Part shown: positions 49,063 through 56,736 of the stretch, one piece after another
Position numbering within the stretch: position 1 is the stretch's first letter
Layout of the letters: each line of letters begins with the position of its first letter
Source: Winogradskyella schleiferi
GTDB taxonomy: Bacteria; Bacteroidota; Bacteroidia; Flavobacteriales; Flavobacteriaceae
DNA length: 64,000 nt
Assembly: GCF_013394655.1 (NCBI RefSeq)
Contig: NZ_CP053351.1
Location: forward strand, 1,766,501 to 1,830,500
Reading direction: 5' to 3'
The notes under the pieces: generated by a model
What the model was told of the DNA's origin: nothing
The model's database searches: none
The model's input: the letters and a program-made list of their open reading frames with translations, nothing else
Program-made: the position numbers and the translations under genes

Positions 49063-51159
49063 ATGAAAAATCTAGTACTTATTTTAGCTCTTGTTTTGTC
49101 CTCATGGCAGATACAAGCCCAAGAAAAAACAATCTCAGGAATTGTAACAACAGCAGATGATGCCTTGCCATTACCAGGCGTAAATGTTATTATCAAAGGG
49201 AATTCCAAAGGAACTCAAACGGATTTTGATGGCAAATACAGCATTCAGGTAAATTCGGGAGATATTCTGGTTTTTAGTTATATAGGCTATATAACCACAG
49301 AGGTTAAAGTTGGAAGCGTTTCAAGAATTAATGTGGCTTTGGAAAGTGATAGCAATAGTCTGGATGAAGTTGTTGTTACGGCATATTCTGTAAGCAAAAA
49401 AAGAGCTTTTACAGGTGCAGTTTCTGTGGTCAGTGTGGAATCCCATCAAACCAGTAAATCACAATTAAGAAATCAAGCGCGAAAACGAGTCCACAATAAA
49501 ATCACTAATCAACTTGCTGGTCAGGTTGCTGGTATTAAAATTAAAGGCACTACCAAGTCTAACATTTCAAACTTATTATATATTGTAGATGGAATCCCAG
49601 TTCAGAAAAGTTATAATACCTTAATAGAGCAATTAGATCCTGATACCATTGATAGTGTCAATATTTATAAGTCTTCTGAAGCCATTAACAAATTTGGAAA
49701 CTCAGCGAAATATGGTTGTATTGTTATTACCACCAAAAGCGGAAATTATCGTATTCAGAATGATGAAGATTATGCGAATATTACTGAAAATAATTTTGAA
49801 AGCACAGCGATGTCGCCGTTATCAACCTTCTCAATTGACGTAGATAAAGCAGGTTACTCAAATGTAAGACGCATGATTAACAATGGCGAAACCATTCCGC
49901 CAGATGCCGTTAAACTTGAAGAAATGGTAAATTATTTTAACTATAAGTATCCGCAACCTACCGACCAACATCCTTTTTCCATTCATACAGAAGTAGTTGA
50001 AACACCATGGCACAAAGACACGCAGTTGGTTAGAATCGGACTACAAGGCAAAAGCTATGAAAACGATCAGTTGCCAGCATCTAACTTAACCTTCTTAATT
50101 GATGTGTCGGGCTCTATGGGTTCGCAAAATAAATTGCCGTTGTTAAAAAGTGCTTTTAAACTTTTGGTAAATCAATTACGGGAAAAGGACAAGGTGTCTA
50201 TTGTGGTGTATGCTGGAGCAGCAGGCGTGGTTTTAGAACCAACCTCTGGAAACGAAAAAGAAAGCATCTTGTCAGCTTTGGATCATTTAAATTCTGGCGG
50301 TTCTACAGCTGGAGGTGCAGGCATTGAGTTGGCTTATAAACTAGCGGAAAAGAATTTTAAAAAGAACGGCAACAATCGTGTGGTTTTGGCCACAGATGGC
50401 GATTTTAATGTTGGCGCTTCGAGTGATAAAGCGATGCAAACCTTAATTGAAGAGAAACGTAAATCTGGCGTATTTTTATCGGTTTTAGGTTTCGGCTATG
50501 GGAACTATAAAGATTCGAAACTAGAAACGCTTGCTGATAAAGGCAACGGAAATCATGCCTATATCGATAATATGCAAGAAGCACAAAAGGTATTTGGAAA
50601 GGAATTTGGCGGTACACTTTTTACAATTGCTAAAGATGTAAAGATTCAAGTGGAATTCAATCCTAAAAAAGTGCAAGCTTATCGTTTAATAGGCTATGAA
50701 AACAGATTGCTAGCTGATGAAGATTTTATAGATGACTCCAAAGATGCTGGTGAATTGGGTAGTGGACATACGGTTACGGCATTGTATGAAGTCATTCCAG
50801 TCGGCATAAAAAGTGACTATCTTAACGCCATTCCAGATTTAAAATATACCCAATCAAAAGTGTCCGCAAATTACGAAGATGAATTGTTCACGGTAAAATT
50901 CAGATATAAAAAGCCGAATGAAGATACCAGTATTGAAATGGTTCATATTCAAAATACACAACTCACAGAAGCTTCTGAGGACATGAATTTCGCTTCAGCT
51001 GTGGCCTTATTCGGTATGCAATTACGAAATTCAAAATATGTCAACAACGCTTCAACCTCTAAAGTGATTGAATTGGCCGAAAGTGGGAGAGGAGCTGATT
51101 CAGACGGTTATAGAGCTGAATTTATGAGATTGGTGAAATCTTATGATAGTTTGAAGTAG
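49063..51159 (+). CDS. TonB-plug-like / von Willebrand factor A fusion protein
   Basis: A 698-residue exported protein. Signal peptide (1-19, ending IQAQ), a carboxypeptidase-D regulatory-like domain (about 22-100, GIVTTADDALPLPGVNVIIKG), and a receptor-plug-like segment (about 105-230, LDEVVVTAYS and LLYIVDGIPVQKSYN). No barrel follows. Instead a VWA_N-type segment (about 250-330) leads into a VWA domain (about 340-510) with MIDAS residues FLIDVSGSMGSQNK and ATDGDFNVG. A YfbK-type C-terminal domain (DUF3520-like) ends it. It probably lies in the periplasm or at the cell surface and binds proteins through the MIDAS metal. Confidence 0.87.
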   Translation: MKNLVLILALVLSSWQIQAQEKTISGIVTTADDALPLPGVNVIIKGNSKGTQTDFDGKYSIQVNSGDILVFSYIGYITTEVKVGSVSRINVALESDSNSLDEVVVTAYSVSKKRAFTGAVSVVSVESHQTSKSQLRNQARKRVHNKITNQLAGQVAGIKIKGTTKSNISNLLYIVDGIPVQKSYNTLIEQLDPDTIDSVNIYKSSEAINKFGNSAKYGCIVITTKSGNYRIQNDEDYANITENNFESTAMSPLSTFSIDVDKAGYSNVRRMINNGETIPPDAVKLEEMVNYFNYKYPQPTDQHPFSIHTEVVETPWHKDTQLVRIGLQGKSYENDQLPASNLTFLIDVSGSMGSQNKLPLLKSAFKLLVNQLREKDKVSIVVYAGAAGVVLEPTSGNEKESILSALDHLNSGGSTAGGAGIELAYKLAEKNFKKNGNNRVVLATDGDFNVGASSDKAMQTLIEEKRKSGVFLSVLGFGYGNYKDSKLETLADKGNGNHAYIDNMQEAQKVFGKEFGGTLFTIAKDVKIQVEFNPKKVQAYRLIGYENRLLADEDFIDDSKDAGELGSGHTVTALYEVIPVGIKSDYLNAIPDLKYTQSKVSANYEDELFTVKFRYKKPNEDTSIEMVHIQNTQLTEASEDMNFASAVALFGMQLRNSKYVNNASTSKVIELAESGRGADSDGYRAEFMRLVKSYDSLK

Positions 51160-51568
51160 GATAGAAATATACGTAAAGTTACGTATAGATAGTACTGTTT
51201 TTAATACTAACTTCGCTCAACTGTGCTGAAATTTTTTAAGTAACAACAGATAGAGGCTATTTGAAGGTAAACAGCACATTGATTTTAGTAATAAGGCAAA
51301 GAAACAAAATCCAAAGTGCGGCATGCCAAGCTTAAGACCATACGAATCTGTATGAAAACCAATAAAGTCAAGATTAAAAACGGGCAGGCCATTTGTGAAG
51401 TTGCTAAATATAAATACCTTTACTACTGACAACCGATTGATAGACTTAAGCGAAATAACGTTACTTTTATGGCTTTGGTAACGTTATACGGGTGTTGTAG
51501 CACATTACGCGCAAAAACAGTGAATGCCTCTAGATTAGTCATTCACTGTTAAAATAAAAGAAATACAA
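51160..51568. other. Non-coding boundary region with cassette-type repeats
   Basis: These 409 bases contain the palindrome TATACGTAA-AG-TTACGTATA (51168-51187), the 10-bp inverted repeat ATAACGTTAC/GTAACGTTAT (51455-51464, 51478-51487), and the module-boundary motif (51479-51506). An open frame at 51217-51432 (minus strand) looks like translated spacer and not a gene. No RNA gene was recognised. Confidence 0.6.
51479..51506 (-). repeat. Module-boundary motif, copy 1
   Basis: On the minus strand it reads AATGTGCTACAACACCCGTA, continuing TAACGTTA, 63 bases after the beta-lactamase-like stop codon. It aligns with the copies at 54543-54562 and 56441-56460. The three share AAyGTnnTACAACA. Confidence 0.7.
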
Positions 51569-52657
51569 TTAGTTACTTCCATGCCATTGAGCCCAATCTT
51601 TCATACTTCCAAATAAGACATTCCTTCCATTAGAGCCATTGGTAAGTATAATAATACCAGATTTTGATTTAAAATCGAGCATGAAACCAGAATGCCAACC
51701 TTCGTTAGAACCTCCATGACCGTTCAATGTGAAATCTCCAAAACGATTCATCTCCATATAACCCATTCCGTAATTTCTTTTTGATATTTCAGTTGGTGCA
51801 GTTAAAAGTGAAATACTTTTTTTAGACAATACAGGATTTCTTGAAAATGATGCTTTTGCAAAGAGAATAAGATCATCTATGGTTGTATGCAAACCCGCTG
51901 CTGCTTGAGCATTAAAAAGACGCAACGGTATTTCCTTTGCTTCTTCATCATACGCTTTAGCAGAGTTTTTTAATATCTTTTTATTGATATCGAAACTCGT
52001 ATGCTTCATTTTTAAAGGTTTAAATATGTTTTTTTGCATATAGTCTGCAAACGATTTACCACTCACCTCTTCTATGACAAGTTGCAATATAGAATAACCT
52101 CCACCAGAATATTGCCATTTACTTTCAGGCTCCATAATAAGCTTTACGGCTTCATCTGGATTGGAAGTTCCAGATAGCGATTGCCTAATTGATGTTAATT
52201 CATTTTTAGATTCATACCCATTATAACCATGTACAGATAAACCTGCTGTATGCTGTAATAAATTTCTAATGGTTACTTTATTAGCATCAAACTCACTAGT
52301 AGGCAAGTTCCATCCTGAAATATAATTTGAAGCAGGAGTGTCTAAATTAAGTGTTCCTTCTTCTACTAATTTCATAATTCCCCAAGCGGTAAACATTTTT
52401 GATATAGATCCAATATTAAATCCTGTTGTACTGTTAACTGCTTCTCCGCTTTTTATATCAGAAAATCCATATCCTTTTTTAATAATCACTTGATCATTTT
52501 TAATAATTGCGATTGCCATACCAGGAACATTATGTTCTTTCAAAGCAATAGCTGTAGATTCATCTAAAGTTTTTTGTAGCTCCTTTTCAGCTGTCATTTG
52601 TGCATTTACGAATAAGGTCGATAATGCCATTGTAATAATTGTAATTAAAGTTTTCAT
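51569..52657 (-). CDS. Exported serine beta-lactamase-like hydrolase
   Basis: A 362-residue class C beta-lactamase/DD-peptidase family protein. The signal peptide ends LFVNAQ (about residue 19). The SxxK motif is GSISKMFT (about 77-84). The second motif is YSGGGYS (Y-S-G where many have Y-x-N), and the third is HGGSNEGWHSGF. It may act on D-amino acid peptides, esters or beta-lactams; resistance cannot be claimed. Direct repeats with 21-bp spacing overlap its promoter, and the divergent neighbour is a LytTR two-component pair, so regulation by that pair is likely. Confidence 0.85.
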   Translation of the reverse strand: MKTLITIITMALSTLFVNAQMTAEKELQKTLDESTAIALKEHNVPGMAIAIIKNDQVIIKKGYGFSDIKSGEAVNSTTGFNIGSISKMFTAWGIMKLVEEGTLNLDTPASNYISGWNLPTSEFDANKVTIRNLLQHTAGLSVHGYNGYESKNELTSIRQSLSGTSNPDEAVKLIMEPESKWQYSGGGYSILQLVIEEVSGKSFADYMQKNIFKPLKMKHTSFDINKKILKNSAKAYDEEAKEIPLRLFNAQAAAGLHTTIDDLILFAKASFSRNPVLSKKSISLLTAPTEISKRNYGMGYMEMNRFGDFTLNGHGGSNEGWHSGFMLDFKSKSGIIILTNGSNGRNVLFGSMKDWAQWHGSN

Positions 52658-52681
52658 ATGTTTTATGTTTTAAATTTGATG

Positions 52682-52715
52682 CAAACCTAGAACTGAATAT
52701 TTGTGATTTAGAACT
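52682..52715 (-). promoter_or_regulatory. LytTR-type promoter of the beta-lactamase-like gene
   Basis: Two direct repeats TAGAACT (52688-52694 and 52709-52715; AGTTCTA on the gene strand) are spaced exactly 21 bp apart, two helical turns, as in LytTR binding sites. The proximal one abuts a TAGGTTTG -7 box (52682-52689). No -33 box is present, as expected for an activator-dependent promoter. Confidence 0.6.
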
Positions 52716-52852
52716 ATTTTGATGAAGTACAAGTACTAAATGTTATACGTCTCTTTCTGATATTTAAAGTACCTTTATCATCTAACATGATCCGTTTGCA
52801 ATATGAAAAGAGCCGTTCATAAAATAAAAGCTGTACCCTTGAATTCGCAACA

Positions 52853-52860
52853 TAGATTTG
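52853..52860 (+). promoter_or_regulatory. Possible -7 box of the two-component operon
   Basis: TAGATTTG, an exact TAnnTTTG match 25 bases before the histidine kinase start. Confidence 0.45.
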
Positions 52861-52885
52861 TGTCAAAATCATAAATAAATATATC

Positions 52886-53833
52886 ATGACACACAAAAAA
52901 CTATTTAAAACATCGGCAATTGTATCAGGGATCATCCTTGTATTGATGCTGATCTTAAGAAACGCGCAAAGCGAAATTTTTACAGTACTTTCAGGATCAT
53001 TAGGCTTAGTGATCTTTTATACACTTTTATATTACCTTTTTCAAACTGAAAAAATAAAATTTGGAGCGACTAATCCAACCCTAAAATATCTTTTCTTCGG
53101 AATTAGCATTCCCTTATTAGTTTACGGCGTACAAGTAACTACAGGAACGGATGGGTTTTTTAAAAACATCATTAAAATTGCCTTATTTATTGAAATTGCA
53201 TATTTAATTTTCTATTGGGTTTATAAATATCGAAGAGGTATTCAGCAATTAAAAAGTGATAAACTAGAAGCAGAATTAATGCTCTTAAAAAATCAAATAA
53301 ATCCTCATTTTTTCTTTAACACCTTAAATAATTTATATTCCCTAATAAAGAAAGATGCTGATGCAGCACAAGACTACGTTTTAAAGCTATCTGATTTAAT
53401 GCGATTTACTATTTACGATAGTGGTAAAGAAAGCGTAATGTTAAAAGATGAAGTTAGTTATTTAATTAATTTTATTGACTTACAAACGGCTAGATACCAT
53501 AAAGAAATTGATCTTAACTTTGAAAAAACGATTAAGAATTCAGATGCTAGTGTAGCTCCTTTATTATTTATCAATTTATTAGAAAATGCTTTTAAACACG
53601 GAGTTGAAAAAGCAACTGATAATGTATTTGTTCATATAAAACTTATTGAAGATGATGCTAAAATAAGTTTTACTGTCAAAAATAATTATGATGCTGAAGA
53701 TACTTCAGAAAATGAAGGCATTGGACTGAAAAACTTAAAAGATCGCTTAAATTTATTATATCCAAATAGTCATAAACTGTGTAATAGTATGGAAGAAAAC
53801 ATCTATACAACAACATTAGAAATAATTAAGTAA
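52886..53833 (+). CDS. LytS/YehU-type sensor histidine kinase
   Basis: A 315-residue kinase. Four hydrophobic helices (about residues 8-28, 33-52, 66-84, 92-112) are followed by a coiled linker and the His_kinase domain, with the phospho-acceptor in KNQINPHFFFNTLNNLYSL (about 134-152). The HATPase region contains NLLENAFKHGVEK and the G-box EGIGLKNLKDRLNLLYP. There is no separate sensor domain, so the membrane part probably senses the signal. It overlaps the response regulator gene by one base (TAATG). Confidence 0.92.
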   Translation: MTHKKLFKTSAIVSGIILVLMLILRNAQSEIFTVLSGSLGLVIFYTLLYYLFQTEKIKFGATNPTLKYLFFGISIPLLVYGVQVTTGTDGFFKNIIKIALFIEIAYLIFYWVYKYRRGIQQLKSDKLEAELMLLKNQINPHFFFNTLNNLYSLIKKDADAAQDYVLKLSDLMRFTIYDSGKESVMLKDEVSYLINFIDLQTARYHKEIDLNFEKTIKNSDASVAPLLFINLLENAFKHGVEKATDNVFVHIKLIEDDAKISFTVKNNYDAEDTSENEGIGLKNLKDRLNLLYPNSHKLCNSMEENIYTTTLEIIK

Positions 53834-54531
53834 TGATAAAATATATAATTGTAGACGATGAGACAGCCTCACATGATAATATTAAAGATTATGCAAGTAA
53901 TCTGTCGTATTTATCCTTTCAAAAAAGTTGTTATAATGCTTTTGAAGCTCTTGACTATTTAAATAAACATTCTATTGACCTTATCTTTTTAGATATTAAT
54001 ATGCCTAAACTTTCTGGTTTAGAGTTTTTAAAAACACTTTCTAATCAGCCAAAGATAATCATTACCACAGCCTATGAAGAATTTGCTTTAGAAGGTTATG
54101 AGTTGAATATTGACGATTATTTATTAAAGCCATTTAATTTTAGCCGTTTTGTAAAATCTGTTAGTAAAATTTCTGATGCATTGGCTAATAAATCCATATC
54201 AATACAAAATTCTGAAAATAATGAAGACGCTAAAATATTTATAAAAGAAGATAAAAAATACTATCAGATTAAGCTTAATGACATTCTATTTATAGAAGCC
54301 TATGGAAATTATGTGAAAATTAATATGGTTGACAGAATAATCGTTTCACATCAAACCTTAACATCCTTTACTCATAATTTGCCTGTAAATCAATTTATAA
54401 GAGTACATAAATCTTTTATTATTTCAATAGATAAAATTGAATTGATTGAAGGCAATAGAATACTTATTCAGGATCATAAAATTCCAATAGGTAAAATGTA
54501 TAAGCTTAATGTAAATCGATTAATAAAATAA
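53833..54531 (+). CDS. LytTR-type response regulator
   Basis: A 232-residue regulator. The receiver domain (about 1-115) has the phospho-acceptor Asp in LIFLDINMPKLSGLEFL and the conserved Lys in DYLLKPFNF. The C-terminal LytTR DNA-binding domain (about 135-230) has ILFIEAYGNYVKINM, FIRVHKSFIISIDKIELIEGN and IPIGKMYKLNV. It is translated with the kinase gene. LytTR proteins bind direct repeats about 21 bp apart, which are found at the divergent beta-lactamase-like promoter. The module-boundary motif begins 12 bases after its stop. Confidence 0.93.
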   Translation: MIKYIIVDDETASHDNIKDYASNLSYLSFQKSCYNAFEALDYLNKHSIDLIFLDINMPKLSGLEFLKTLSNQPKIIITTAYEEFALEGYELNIDDYLLKPFNFSRFVKSVSKISDALANKSISIQNSENNEDAKIFIKEDKKYYQIKLNDILFIEAYGNYVKINMVDRIIVSHQTLTSFTHNLPVNQFIRVHKSFIISIDKIELIEGNRILIQDHKIPIGKMYKLNVNRLIK

Positions 54532-54542
54532 AATTATTTAAA

Positions 54543-54562
54543 AACGTGCTACAACAAAGTAC
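54543..54562 (+). repeat. Module-boundary motif, copy 2
   Basis: AACGTGCTACAACAAAGTAC, 12 bases after the response regulator stop, matching 15 of 20 bases of copy 3. The expected rest of the element is found on the far side of the IS110 insertion (from 55790). Confidence 0.68.
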
Positions 54563-54588
54563 TGTGGTAAAAAACAAGTAAAATCTCA

Positions 54589-55560
54589 TTAATTTTTCAC
54601 TAAAGTACTTTTATATTCTGCATCATATATCAAGCCTGATTTTGCGATTGCAAAGGCCTGTTTTAGTAATTTATTACACACTGCGATTAATGCTAATTTT
54701 TTGCTCTTTCCTTTGGCCACAATTCGCTCGTAAAGATCTCGGCAAGCCTTGTTGTATTTACATGCATTAAAACTGCACATAAATAATAAATTTCTCAGTT
54801 TCTGGTTTCCTATTTTACTTATCCTCGGTCGGCCTTTTACACTACTTCCGCTTTGGCTAATTACTGGAGTCAGACCTGCGTAACTGCACAGCTCACTTGC
54901 GCTTGTAAAACGATCAAAACCTCCTGTTAAAAACACCAACATAATAGCTGTTTTTGGCCCAATACCTGGAATGGTCTTTAAACGTGTAAACAGATCCTGA
55001 TGCGATTGTTTTACTAAAACCAAAAGCATTTCCTCTAAGGTTTTTATCTCTTTTGTCAGTTGCCTTAAGCTACGTTTTAAAGACGTTACAACAATCTTAC
55101 TTGGATTGCCCAAAACAGCTTCACCGTGTATTTTGTTTTTTAGCATAGTACTTTGTTTTGTATACACAGAAAGGGTTCTGACGATTTGGAGACATTCTAT
55201 CTCATTCTTGGAATTGCCTTTCCGAAGCTTTAATTCTACTTGCTCAGCATAAGCACATATAAGTTTGGAATCGCTCTTGTCCGTTTTGATCTTGGACAGC
55301 CTCATCTGGATAAATCGTTTTACAGACAATGGATTTTCTACAGATACATTTATACCATTTTCGAGTAAATAGTATGCTAACTGATAATGGTTATAACCTG
55401 TAGCTTCCTTCACACAATGGCTGTTCGAATTCAAGAGTTTTGCAAACTTCTTAAAGCCCGATAATTTGTTCTTGAACTGATGATAATTACCATCAGAGTC
55501 TGTAACATCAAAAACCAAATGACTGATGTCAATCCCAAAATATTTAATATCTTTATTCAT
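54589..55560 (-). CDS. IS110 family transposase
   Basis: A 323-residue recombinase. The N-terminal DEDD-type RuvC-like domain shows FGIDISHLVFDVTD (first Asp), VKEATGYNHY (Glu), and KIKTDKSDSKLICAYA (late Asp pair). The C-terminal Tnp_IS110_IS116 domain has LKTIPGIGPKTAIMLVFLTGG and the serine-containing LCSYAGLTPVISQSGSSVKG. Length and layout are complete, so the enzyme may be active. IS110 enzymes use a bridge RNA from the element's non-coding end to choose targets. Confidence 0.93.
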   Translation of the reverse strand: MNKDIKYFGIDISHLVFDVTDSDGNYHQFKNKLSGFKKFAKLLNSNSHCVKEATGYNHYQLAYYLLENGINVSVENPLSVKRFIQMRLSKIKTDKSDSKLICAYAEQVELKLRKGNSKNEIECLQIVRTLSVYTKQSTMLKNKIHGEAVLGNPSKIVVTSLKRSLRQLTKEIKTLEEMLLVLVKQSHQDLFTRLKTIPGIGPKTAIMLVFLTGGFDRFTSASELCSYAGLTPVISQSGSSVKGRPRISKIGNQKLRNLLFMCSFNACKYNKACRDLYERIVAKGKSKKLALIAVCNKLLKQAFAIAKSGLIYDAEYKSTLVKN

Positions 55561-55760
55561 AAGAAAATGTTTTTATGAAAGGACAATCTACGCGAGTTTC
55601 AACGACTTGAAATCGAGGTCCAAAAGGCCTCATAGTCCCGATAGTTATCGGGATGTACGAAATCTGTGTAGAAAAGAGAGGGGATTTTCAATGTTGACGA
55701 GATCTAAAGTCTCTGCGTGTATATTAACCTTATTCCTCTCTTTTGTCTTTTCTGATTTAT
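55561..55760 (-). ncRNA. Candidate IS110 bridge RNA region
   Basis: The non-coding stretch upstream of the transposase start is where IS110-group elements encode the bridge RNA. It contains hairpins at 55615-55631 (GAGGTCC/GGCCTC, one G-U pair) and 55636-55653 (TCCCGATAGTTATCGGGA). The ends and loop assignments are not determined here. Confidence 0.45.
55636..55653. repeat. Palindrome TCCCGATAGTTATCGGGA
   Basis: An 18-base near-palindrome (central GT only mismatch) that occurs again at 56495-56512 with one base changed. CCCGATAGCTATCGGG palindromes recur in Flavobacteria genomes. Confidence 0.75.
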
Positions 55761-55789
55761 GCTCTAATTTAATGAATTGTAAACTTAAG

Positions 55790-55918
55790 CCGTGTATAAT
55801 TAATTGCTTTGGCAAGTGCTTATTTGGAAAATTCCTTCGGAATTTTCTCGCGTTCGTTTTTGTTTACTAAATTAGTTGCTTAAACACGCAACTAACCACA
55901 CAAAACCGTTGTACAACA
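55790..55918 (+). repeat. Inter-module element A
   Basis: Begins CCGTGTATAATTAATTGCT, has the hairpin AAAATTCC-TTC-GGAATTTT (55828-55846) followed by CTCGCG, then CTAAATTAGTTGCTTAAACA, CGCAAC, and ends with CGTTGTACAACA (55907-55918), 17 bases before the lipoprotein start. It aligns in order with element B at 56441-56592, with a different hairpin. Confidence 0.68.
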
Positions 55919-55935
55919 TTAAAAAACGCTTCAAA

Positions 55936-56439
55936 TTGAAAATTAAACTCTTGAATATAATACTGATTTCATCCATTGTGATGCTTAATTGTAAATCGCA
56001 TAAAGAAATTAATAAACTCGCTTCTACATTAGAATGCACTAAACCTATTGAATTCATTTTTGACAAACAAAGTAATGCTGTTAAAATCGAAAAAGTAGGT
56101 CCAAGTATTGGCGAATCAAAAATTCCTAACTACGAACTTACATTTATTAGAGCTGTAAATGAATTGAATGAAAATATGAATACGGAATTAAAAGCGACTC
56201 AAACTCTTGGTTTCCCATCTGATTCTGTTCTTAAAGTAGAAGTTAGAATTGAGAAAATAATATGGGATTTTAGAACTACAGATGCGATAATGACTACTGA
56301 GCTGAATTTTAAATTTGAAGATAAAGAGATTAAAACAACTGGAACAAATACGACTTATGTTCACGGTACTAAAAAAGGGAATCTTCGTAAAAGTCTTAAA
56401 AGTGGAATTTATGAATTCTTGAATATATATTGTGATTAA
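55936..56439 (+). CDS. Small lipoprotein of unknown function (single-gene module)
   Basis: A 167-residue lipoprotein. The TTG at 55936 gives a signal peptide of about 18 residues ending IVMLNC; the frame is open 20 codons farther upstream, but that part lies within element A. The mature part is beta-rich (LKVEVRIEKIIWDFRTTDAIM; TELNFKFEDKEIKTTGTNTTY) and has a C-terminal helix. No domain is recognised. It lies between CGTTGTACAACA copies at 55907-55918 and 56443-56454, like a one-gene cassette. Confidence 0.7.
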   Translation: MKIKLLNIILISSIVMLNCKSHKEINKLASTLECTKPIEFIFDKQSNAVKIEKVGPSIGESKIPNYELTFIRAVNELNENMNTELKATQTLGFPSDSVLKVEVRIEKIIWDFRTTDAIMTTELNFKFEDKEIKTTGTNTTYVHGTKKGNLRKSLKSGIYEFLNIYCD

Positions 56440-56440
56440 T

Positions 56441-56592
56441 AACGTTGTACAACACCGTATAAAATTATTTGCTAGTTTCTAGCCTACTTACGAATCCCGA
56501 TAGCTATCGGGACTCGCGGATTTTGAACTGCACCCAAAAAGTTAGACACTATTCGGTTTGTATTTGCTAAATTAGGTGCTTACACGCAAAAA
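56441..56592 (+). repeat. Inter-module element B with boundary motif copy 3
   Basis: Starts at the lipoprotein stop with AACGTTGTACAACACCGTAT, continues AAAATTATTTGCT, has the palindrome TCCCGATAGCTATCGGGA (56495-56512) followed by CTCGCG, then CTAAATTAGGTGCTTACACG and CAAAAAC. Order and spacing parallel element A. Confidence 0.7.
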
Positions 56593-56663
56593 CACTATGA
56601 GCGTCACAATGTATGGTATTGATTATTCCAAAAAAATATAATTCAACTATTCCACTAATTCCC

Positions 56664-56671
56664 TACATTTG
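56664..56671 (+). promoter_or_regulatory. Possible -7 box of ychF
   Basis: TACATTTG matches TAnnTTTG, 65 bases before the ychF start, so the mRNA leader would include the REP-like hairpin. Confidence 0.45.
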
Positions 56672-56712
56672 CACTCTCTTAAAAAAAGAGGAATTAAGTT
56701 TAATTAAAAAGA

Positions 56713-56730
56713 TTCCCGCGTTCGCGGGAA
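56713..56730 (+). repeat. REP-like hairpin in the ychF leader
   Basis: TTCCCGCGTTCGCGGGAA is a perfect 8-bp stem with a TT centre, ending 6 bases before the ychF start. Its right half plus the start-codon context is shared with thrB (18002-18022). It could limit ribosome access. Confidence 0.75.
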
Positions 56731-56736
56731 ATAGAT

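Follow-up and report, generated by a model that had tools for sequence, protein, structure and literature searches.

Here, we analysed a 64,000-nucleotide stretch of the Winogradskyella schleiferi chromosome (contig NZ_CP053351.1, positions 1,766,501 to 1,830,500; this whole stretch is called the window below). In its last part, a beta-lactamase-family gene, a histidine kinase gene, a response regulator gene and a lipoprotein gene are found together with an insertion sequence (IS) of the IS110 family and with short sequences that recur at the gene boundaries (Table 1). From the sequence, we propose that these genes lie in two cassettes. The elements bounding them are very probably recombination sites resembling attC, which belong to an integron-like cassette system of marine Bacteroidota with an Xer-like integrase. 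The window holds a small outlier of two cassettes; the main array and the recombinase lie elsewhere in the chromosome.

Cassettes in the window

A sequence-only reading of the window had reported a motif shared by three gene 3' ends, and this motif proved to be real: AAYGTNNTACAACA occurs exactly at 51493-51506 (minus strand), 54543-54556 (plus) and 56441-56454 (plus), and with one mismatch at 55905-55918. Allowing up to one mismatch, six matches were found in the window against 1.15 expected, a number reached by 0 of 100 shuffles. The three exact copies lie 63, 11 and 1 nt behind stop codons, in agreement with the reported range of 1-63 bases. Genome-wide, the 14-mer has eight exact copies, and its 98 matches with up to one mismatch stay so close to the 87 of a reversed control pattern that we rejected the 14 bases as repeat unit. 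They are the variable start of an element running about 115 nt further; in the stretches L001 and L008, these ~115 nt come after the motif and terminate in ..ATACACAAA..CG^TTR. For the full element, 49 matches were counted across the genome. The motif does bound cassettes, as had been supposed, but only as the edge box of a hairpin of about 130 nt.

Since GTTGTAC/GTACAAC is palindromic, two of the copies are best read differently. The copy at 51493-51506, previously assigned to the minus strand behind the beta-lactamase-like gene, is better taken as the plus-strand start of a cassette that ends at 54556, and the additional copy noticed at 55907-55918, present with one mismatch, as the start of the lipoprotein cassette (G^TTGTAC, 55908-55914). 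The beta-lactamase-family, kinase and regulator genes then form one cassette. Its start and end boxes are exactly complementary over 7 nt, and so are those of cassette 2 (GTTGTAC, 55908-55914; GTACAAC, 56447-56453). Cassette 1 is present a second time 1.2 Mb away (G000:C1:3026515-3029577, stretch L031) as a single block of 3,063 bp with 96.0% identity. The similarity extends from the predicted crossover G to one base past the R''-type box and the flanks are unrelated, which supports the earlier idea of mobile cassettes. The statement that the window lacks an integrase also agrees with our data, as none was seen there among the own-genome matches; the candidate lies about 1.47 Mb away.

Table 1 Features of the two window cassettes and their attC-like sites (window coordinates).
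Feature	Position	Strand	Remarks
Cassette 1	51494..54556	+	G^TTGTAG start, end box CTACAAC plus one A; beta-lactamase-family (reverse), histidine kinase and LytTR regulator genes
R'-type core site GTTGTAG, cassette 1 start	51494..51500	+	51494 is where similarity to the second copy sets in
Beta-lactamase family protein gene, PF00144	51569..52657	-	reverse gene within cassette 1
Histidine kinase gene, PF06580	52886..53833	+	cassette 1
Response regulator gene with LytTR domain, PF00072 and PF04397	53833..54531	+	cassette 1
R''-type box CTACAAC, 5' edge of attC-like site 1	54549..54555	+	exact complement of 51494-51500
IS110 element within attC-like site 1	54557..55789 (ends approximate; transposase 54589-55560)	-	PF02371, PF01548
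attC-like site 1, 3' remainder, to core site G^TTGTAC (55908-55914)	55790..55914	+	R1 match 55783-55914, 114 bits
Cassette 2, lipoprotein gene (open reading frame to 56439; likely start TTG 55936, uncertain)	55909..56453	+	complementary boxes
attC-like site 2, degenerate	56447..56609	+	R1 25.8 bits, E 0.001

A hairpin site and a 37-kb array

The full site is an imperfect palindrome of about 130 nt (most copies 128-137 nt), framed by integron-type core boxes in the order NNNYAAC ... G^TTRNNN. Six complete copies from the own genome, in which the bottom strand folds into a stem of 16 pairs with compensatory changes, were aligned and turned into a covariance model, R1. Applied to 11 stretches of the own genome (200 kb), R1 returned 33 distinct matches with E <= 1e-4, which extend from 3292960 to 3329823; they share a single orientation, and a few have a damaged end. 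Matches on the opposite strand at the same places were weak (E >= 0.025). This 37-kb array is the main one of the genome; R1 further matched twice in the window (114 and 25.8 bits) and once at 1605436.

A larger set was obtained from relatives of the recombinase described below, of which 136 were found and 80 loci kept, covering among others Winogradskyella, Hanstruepera, Maribacter, Arenibacter, Algibacter, Brumimicrobium and Marivirga. R1 (E <= 0.1) detected 131 sites in 39 of these loci, and their stem cells are paired to 96.1%, with 23 of 29 pairs changing on both sides; no shuffle scored as high and slid structures reached only 34-54%. Alignments fitted to a model, as this one was, lean towards its structure. 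In a separate MAFFT alignment of 46 diverse sites, to which the structure was transferred from the fitted alignment, 95.0% of the cells were paired and 14 of 20 pairs changed on both sides. The strands are not equivalent. The bottom strand gave the more stable fold in 108 of 117 sites and the top strand in eight, and in two stem pairs G.T predominates on the bottom strand (126 and 108 of 131 sites), corresponding to A.C if the top strand were folded. Only three positions account for the excess of G.T; a general wobble excess of the bottom strand was rejected, with 9 G.T against 6 A.C outside them. At the sole bulge column, 40 of the 46 diverse sites carry no extrahelical base, and regular extrahelical bases, as found in integron sites, are lacking; in their place stand an asymmetric 4-6/3-nt loop and the fixed G.T wobbles. 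A search of Rfam yielded one match, far under the gathering score.

What is the unit in such an array: the site or the interval between sites? Array sites terminate in GTTRNNN, and the next site opens with the complement of those bases. From the own array and the 80 loci, 112 pairs of consecutive sites with gaps of 150-4500 nt were collected, 102 of them with clean GTT and AAC ends. In 87 of the 102 pairs, the boxes at the start and end of a cassette agree in all four variable bases (mean of 2000 shuffles 7.9, maximum 17), while the two ends of one single site match in 9 of 145. The ends match across the interval and not across the site, so the interval is the unit with its own matched ends, as are integron cassettes. 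We examined 29 of the 32 own-array intervals, leaving out one longer than 2.2 kb and two short ones without an open reading frame. The longest reading frame runs in the direction of the array in 27 of them, 15 of which have their stop codon 7-10 nt ahead of the box. Integron cassettes are likewise defined by one or a few genes, for the most part co-oriented, whose stop is near the attC site.

Regarding array content, an aldo/keto reductase cassette is present twice (G000:C1:3311563-3312455 and 3322900-3323792; equal length of the reading frame and same first 50 residues). In the stretch L049 (9454-11795 and 17572-19383), a C-5 cytosine methylase and an HpaII-type nuclease are encoded directly behind the attI-like site introduced below, and the array also encodes an OLD-like AAA/TOPRIM protein and, judged by eye, a TIR-like protein. 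These four could possibly be defence cargo.

The recombinase and the attI-like site

The recombinase that co-occurs with the sites is a tyrosine recombinase encoded 3.8 kb upstream of the first array site and on the array strand. It is the strongest match of the own genome to the integron integrase profile TIGR02249, yet below the cut-off (193 bits against 265) and aligned in two stretches. In total, this profile has 11 matches in the own genome, none above the cut-off, and all 14 control genomes have such matches below it as well. The protein carries Phage_integrase and SAM-like domains, preceded by about 105 N-terminal residues without Pfam match. Its nearest NCBIfam family is NF040815 (242 bits, cut-off 220), the XerD and XerC profiles match below their cut-offs, and the best solved structures are XerA-like (4a8e, 5hxy). 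IntI4 (2a3v) aligns in two pieces, with its residues 179-248 left out. The spacing between two catalytic motifs is 91-92 residues in all array-linked recombinases measured (34 long, 11 medium and 4 short ones), compared to 133 in 22 canonical IntI (five of 27 could not be read) and 96-97 in two Xer proteins; the insert of about 42 residues that marks canonical IntI is absent. The catalytic positions R, K, H, R, H and Y are invariant or nearly so in 34 proteins. With a tyrosine recombinase fold, these residues and no IntI insert, the protein has the features of an Xer recombinase, and two other, separate Xer-type genes are present in the own genome. In a tree of 42 rows, canonical IntI formed one clade (100/100) and the long type another (100/99), while their mutual relation was not resolved; a clade of all insert-less recombinases was neither supported nor rejected (approximately unbiased test, p-AU 0.485).

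Behind the recombinase gene, in most loci 42-78 nt past the end of the match, a palindrome is followed by an AATTG^TTR-like sequence. A pattern with four mismatches allowed found this attI-like site in 64 of the 80 loci, although it also matches 37 of 400 control windows, which counts against the pattern and makes it probable that a few of the matches are due to chance. Two doubtful loci (L155, L167) were dropped. In 53 of the remaining 62, the arms have at least 8 of 9 complementary bases, compared to about 2.7 expected from shuffles. Among 51 pairs of loci whose recombinase 3' ends are 78-97% identical, mean identity is 82% in the 35 nt leading up to G^TT and 36% in the 60 nt that follow (maximum 47%, ungapped); in the three pairs at 95-97%, identity after G^TT is 28-43%. 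Setting the cut at G^TT by the pattern biases towards similarity before it, not towards a drop after it. A conserved boundary with turnover directly behind it corresponds in position to the attI site of integrons, which lies beside the integrase gene and where the first cassette would join.

Distribution of sites and recombinase

To place these findings, 60 relatives including the own genome were scanned for sites, with 56 candidates scored per genome, so that 56 is a floor. All 37 genomes of the genus contain sites (2 to at least 56 matches each; 49 in the own genome), and so do four of 23 from other families of the order. A recombinase match with E <= 6e-56 was found in 31 of the 37. In the 80 recombinase loci, 124 of the 131 sites lie downstream of the recombinase and co-oriented with it. 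Contigs tend to break there, with less than 3 kb of DNA downstream of the recombinase in 46 loci compared to upstream in five, an effect to be expected of repeats.

In an even sample of 395 genomes from the phylum (R2 with E <= 1e-4, eight candidates scored per genome; recombinase with E <= 1e-60), 118 genomes have sites, 111 the recombinase and 69 both (Fisher p 2e-17). Among genomes of the same class or closer, 43 bear sites, of which 33 encode the new type of recombinase and one a canonical IntI. Canonical IntI exceeds its cut-off in 105 of the 395 genomes and is common in other classes of the phylum; G095 is the only genome in which it was seen within the class of the window. We further looked at 25 recombinases of the phylum, chosen for having sites of their genome among the matches listed. 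The sites lie downstream and co-oriented in 15 cases and upstream and co-oriented in G423; five short recombinases (G239, G104, G096, G232, G112) have them upstream and divergent, and four have none within 60 kb. Shorter proteins of 272-306 residues (L283-L287: G104, G096, G239, G112), from another family and one Flavobacteriaceae genome, thereby show the layout of classical integrons, with the array upstream and divergent.

A proposed cassette system and its alternatives

The following mechanism would account for these observations. A cassette, i.e. one gene or a small set of genes, starts with G^TTRNNN and ends soon after its last stop codon with the complementary NNNYAAC, which opens the imperfect palindrome of ~130 nt. 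Encoded ahead of the main array, the XerA-like recombinase most likely captures this palindrome's bottom strand as a hairpin, so that one single strand would be the substrate. Exchange at G^TT between two sites would excise a cassette as a circle, and exchange at G^TT with the attI-like palindrome behind the recombinase gene would insert it. The two cassettes of the window lie away from the array, and one of their sites was later split by IS110. What the sequence itself shows is the covarying site, the matched boxes within a cassette, the array, the attI-like boundary with turnover of the DNA behind it, the linkage to the recombinase and the presence of one cassette at two places; the action of this recombinase on the sites, the single bottom strand as substrate and the formation of circles are inferred from these findings.

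Several observations weigh against this proposal. Six genomes of the genus have sites and no recombinase match better than 6e-56 (G007, G021, G023, G024, G034, G035), one of them, G034, with at least 56 sites, and in G009 and G025 the recombinase is broken. On the top strand, one of six sites has no better fold than its own shuffles (63 of 200), and the first site detected in the own array does not complement the start of the attI-like site, which points to a site there that was missed or has decayed. Of the 131 sites, seven (five in L186 and two in L119) do not follow the recombinase in its own orientation. The phylum sample gave no recombinase match for 49 of the 118 genomes with sites and no sites for 42 of the 111 with the recombinase; in the class, these numbers are 10 of 43 and 18 of 51 (the other 33 have them).

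An ordinary chromosomal integron offers another explanation, with a divergent IntI whose additional domain was lost or never acquired and with standard attC sites that current models happen to miss. Layout, core boxes and palindrome length indeed fit the definition of integrons, in which RYYYAAC and GTTRRRY boxes surround an attC palindrome of 57-141 bp (PMC3053210); the new sites show these boxes in the relaxed form NNNYAAC/GTTRNNN, together with covariation. Moreover, the title of the family passed by the recombinase, NF040815, reads 'site-specific tyrosine recombinase/integron integrase', and the tree leaves the relation to IntI unresolved. Nevertheless, we regard this explanation as improbable in view of the spacing of 91-92 in 49 array-linked recombinases against 133 in canonical IntI, the closed clade of the latter, the TIGR02249 score and the 40 of 46 sites without a bulge. 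IntI reads extrahelical bases partly with an extra helix (PMC3053210), and canonical integrases carry an IntI-specific additional domain (PMC7784347, PMC9668308). As both this domain and the extrahelical bases are missing here, we consider the system integron-like and outside the canonical family; a recombinase that lacks the reader would suit sites that lack what is read.

Two further explanations were considered. Host XerC/XerD might work the sites as in dif-like modules, the array recombinase being incidental, which would suit site-rich genomes such as G034, where recombinase matches are of Xer level only, and the two separate Xer-type genes of the own genome. A conserved recombinase heads the arrays in many genera, however, and hairpins of ~130 nt are unlike dif, a site of about 28 bp, so that we deem this quite unlikely. 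Dispersed hairpin repeats without cassette function, such as miniature inverted-repeat transposable elements (MITE), repetitive extragenic palindromes (REP) or terminator-like sequences, could also end up behind genes by chance; palindromes of this size after stop codons, repeated within genomes, would be expected of them, and a T-poor palindrome also stands behind the recombinase gene. Independent MITE- or REP-like copies were rejected because the ends of neighbouring copies complement each other over the intervening gene in 87 of 102 pairs, whereas across one site this holds for 9 of 145. All 33 array sites share one orientation, conservation stops at G^TT and the sites are linked to one recombinase family, which leaves this explanation hardly any probability.

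The proposed integron-like system resembles sedentary chromosomal integrons in having one recombinase gene, an adjoining attI-like site, a co-oriented cassette array with repeated identical cassettes, relaxed core boxes, a palindrome within 57-141 bp and a preference of folding for the bottom strand. It differs in three respects: its recombinase lacks the IntI additional domain, has ~105 extra residues at the N-terminus and scores below the IntI-profile cut-off; the array of the long type is downstream and co-oriented instead of divergent; and the sites have fixed G.T wobbles instead of regular extrahelical bases. With archaeal XerA and other Xer proteins it shares the closest named family and structures, the lack of the insert and, in plan, a palindromic double-stranded partner site; unlike them, the new recombinase is tied to cassette arrays and hairpin sites, in a genome with two further Xer-type genes. 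The integration of CTXphi by XerCD likewise employs a folded single strand without extrahelical bases and a recombinase without an I2-like domain (PMC4792948). CTXphi differs in that there is no cassette array and host XerCD is used instead of a recombinase of its own.

Escudero et al. speculated that an Xer-like ancestor acquired the I2 domain (PMC4792948). Whether Bacteroidia hold a distinct class of integrons, with an Xer-like integrase lacking the I2 insert and an attC strand marked by fixed G.T wobbles and an asymmetric loop, seems to us an even bet; such a class would have invented cassette capture independently, or it would be a surviving relation of the Xer-like ancestor proposed for IntI. 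A cassette system working without I2, if true, would reveal what I2 is and is not needed for. Integrase searches require a profile of the IntI-specific domain, as described in PMC9668308, and by such searches a system of this type would be classed as integrase-less at best. The relevant passages of the IntegronFinder 2.0 paper give for Bacteroidetes only In0 integrons and then one complete integron, from Salinibacter, and where PMC8618304 and PMC9668308 list integron-bearing phyla, Bacteroidota are named without detail. We found no prior report of such a system in the open literature, preprints and most subscription papers being outside this coverage, and no paper there pairs 'integron' with 'Winogradskyella'. 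With sites in all 37 genomes of the genus and 80 kept recombinase loci (of 136) from many genera, the pool of mobile genes would be large.

Insertion sequences and neighbouring loci

Seven near-full copies of the IS110 element are present in the genome (54557-55789 of the window; L340-L342, L344-L346). Six of them could be placed at the left end: each has NNNYAACA in front of it, and in five of the six the IS is followed by CCGTRTA, with which the site continues. Eight shorter pieces were inspected as well; six were placeable and five of these lie after CAACA. As the copies occupy the same position of the site, IS110 appears to target the attC-like sites. Some IS1111 elements (IS1111-attC: ISKpn4, ISPst6) are described to target one end of integron attC sites (PMC11187229); their transposase is of the same IS110/IS1111 kind and likewise aimed at one end of cassette sites, whereas here the IS lies between the R''-type box and the CCGTRTA of the new sites.

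The beta-lactamase-family gene occurs in seven of the 37 genus genomes, with a G^TT start seen in the two own copies only. Next to the gene, L330-L333 and L337 have a different sequence, and no R1 site was found in nine loci of this gene, which reach only 1.5 kb. Downstream of cassette 2, the DNA beside ychF varies between relatives, judged by differences of neighbouring genes read from open reading frames. An R1 site lies upstream of ychF in three of 30 loci of relatives, L299 (own), L308 and L304, and the 5' side of ychF (56610-56736; L308, L304) is possibly a recurrent landing place. The YfbK-like gene of the window was not found in the 1.0-1.5 kb upstream of ychF in any of 30 loci, out of 36 genomes with ychF, own included; as the own insert is longer, it is missed even at the own locus and no empty site is demonstrated by this comparison. 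In the window, one single protein (49063-51159) combines carboxypeptidase-regulatory-like, TonB plug, VWA and YfbK C-terminal domains.

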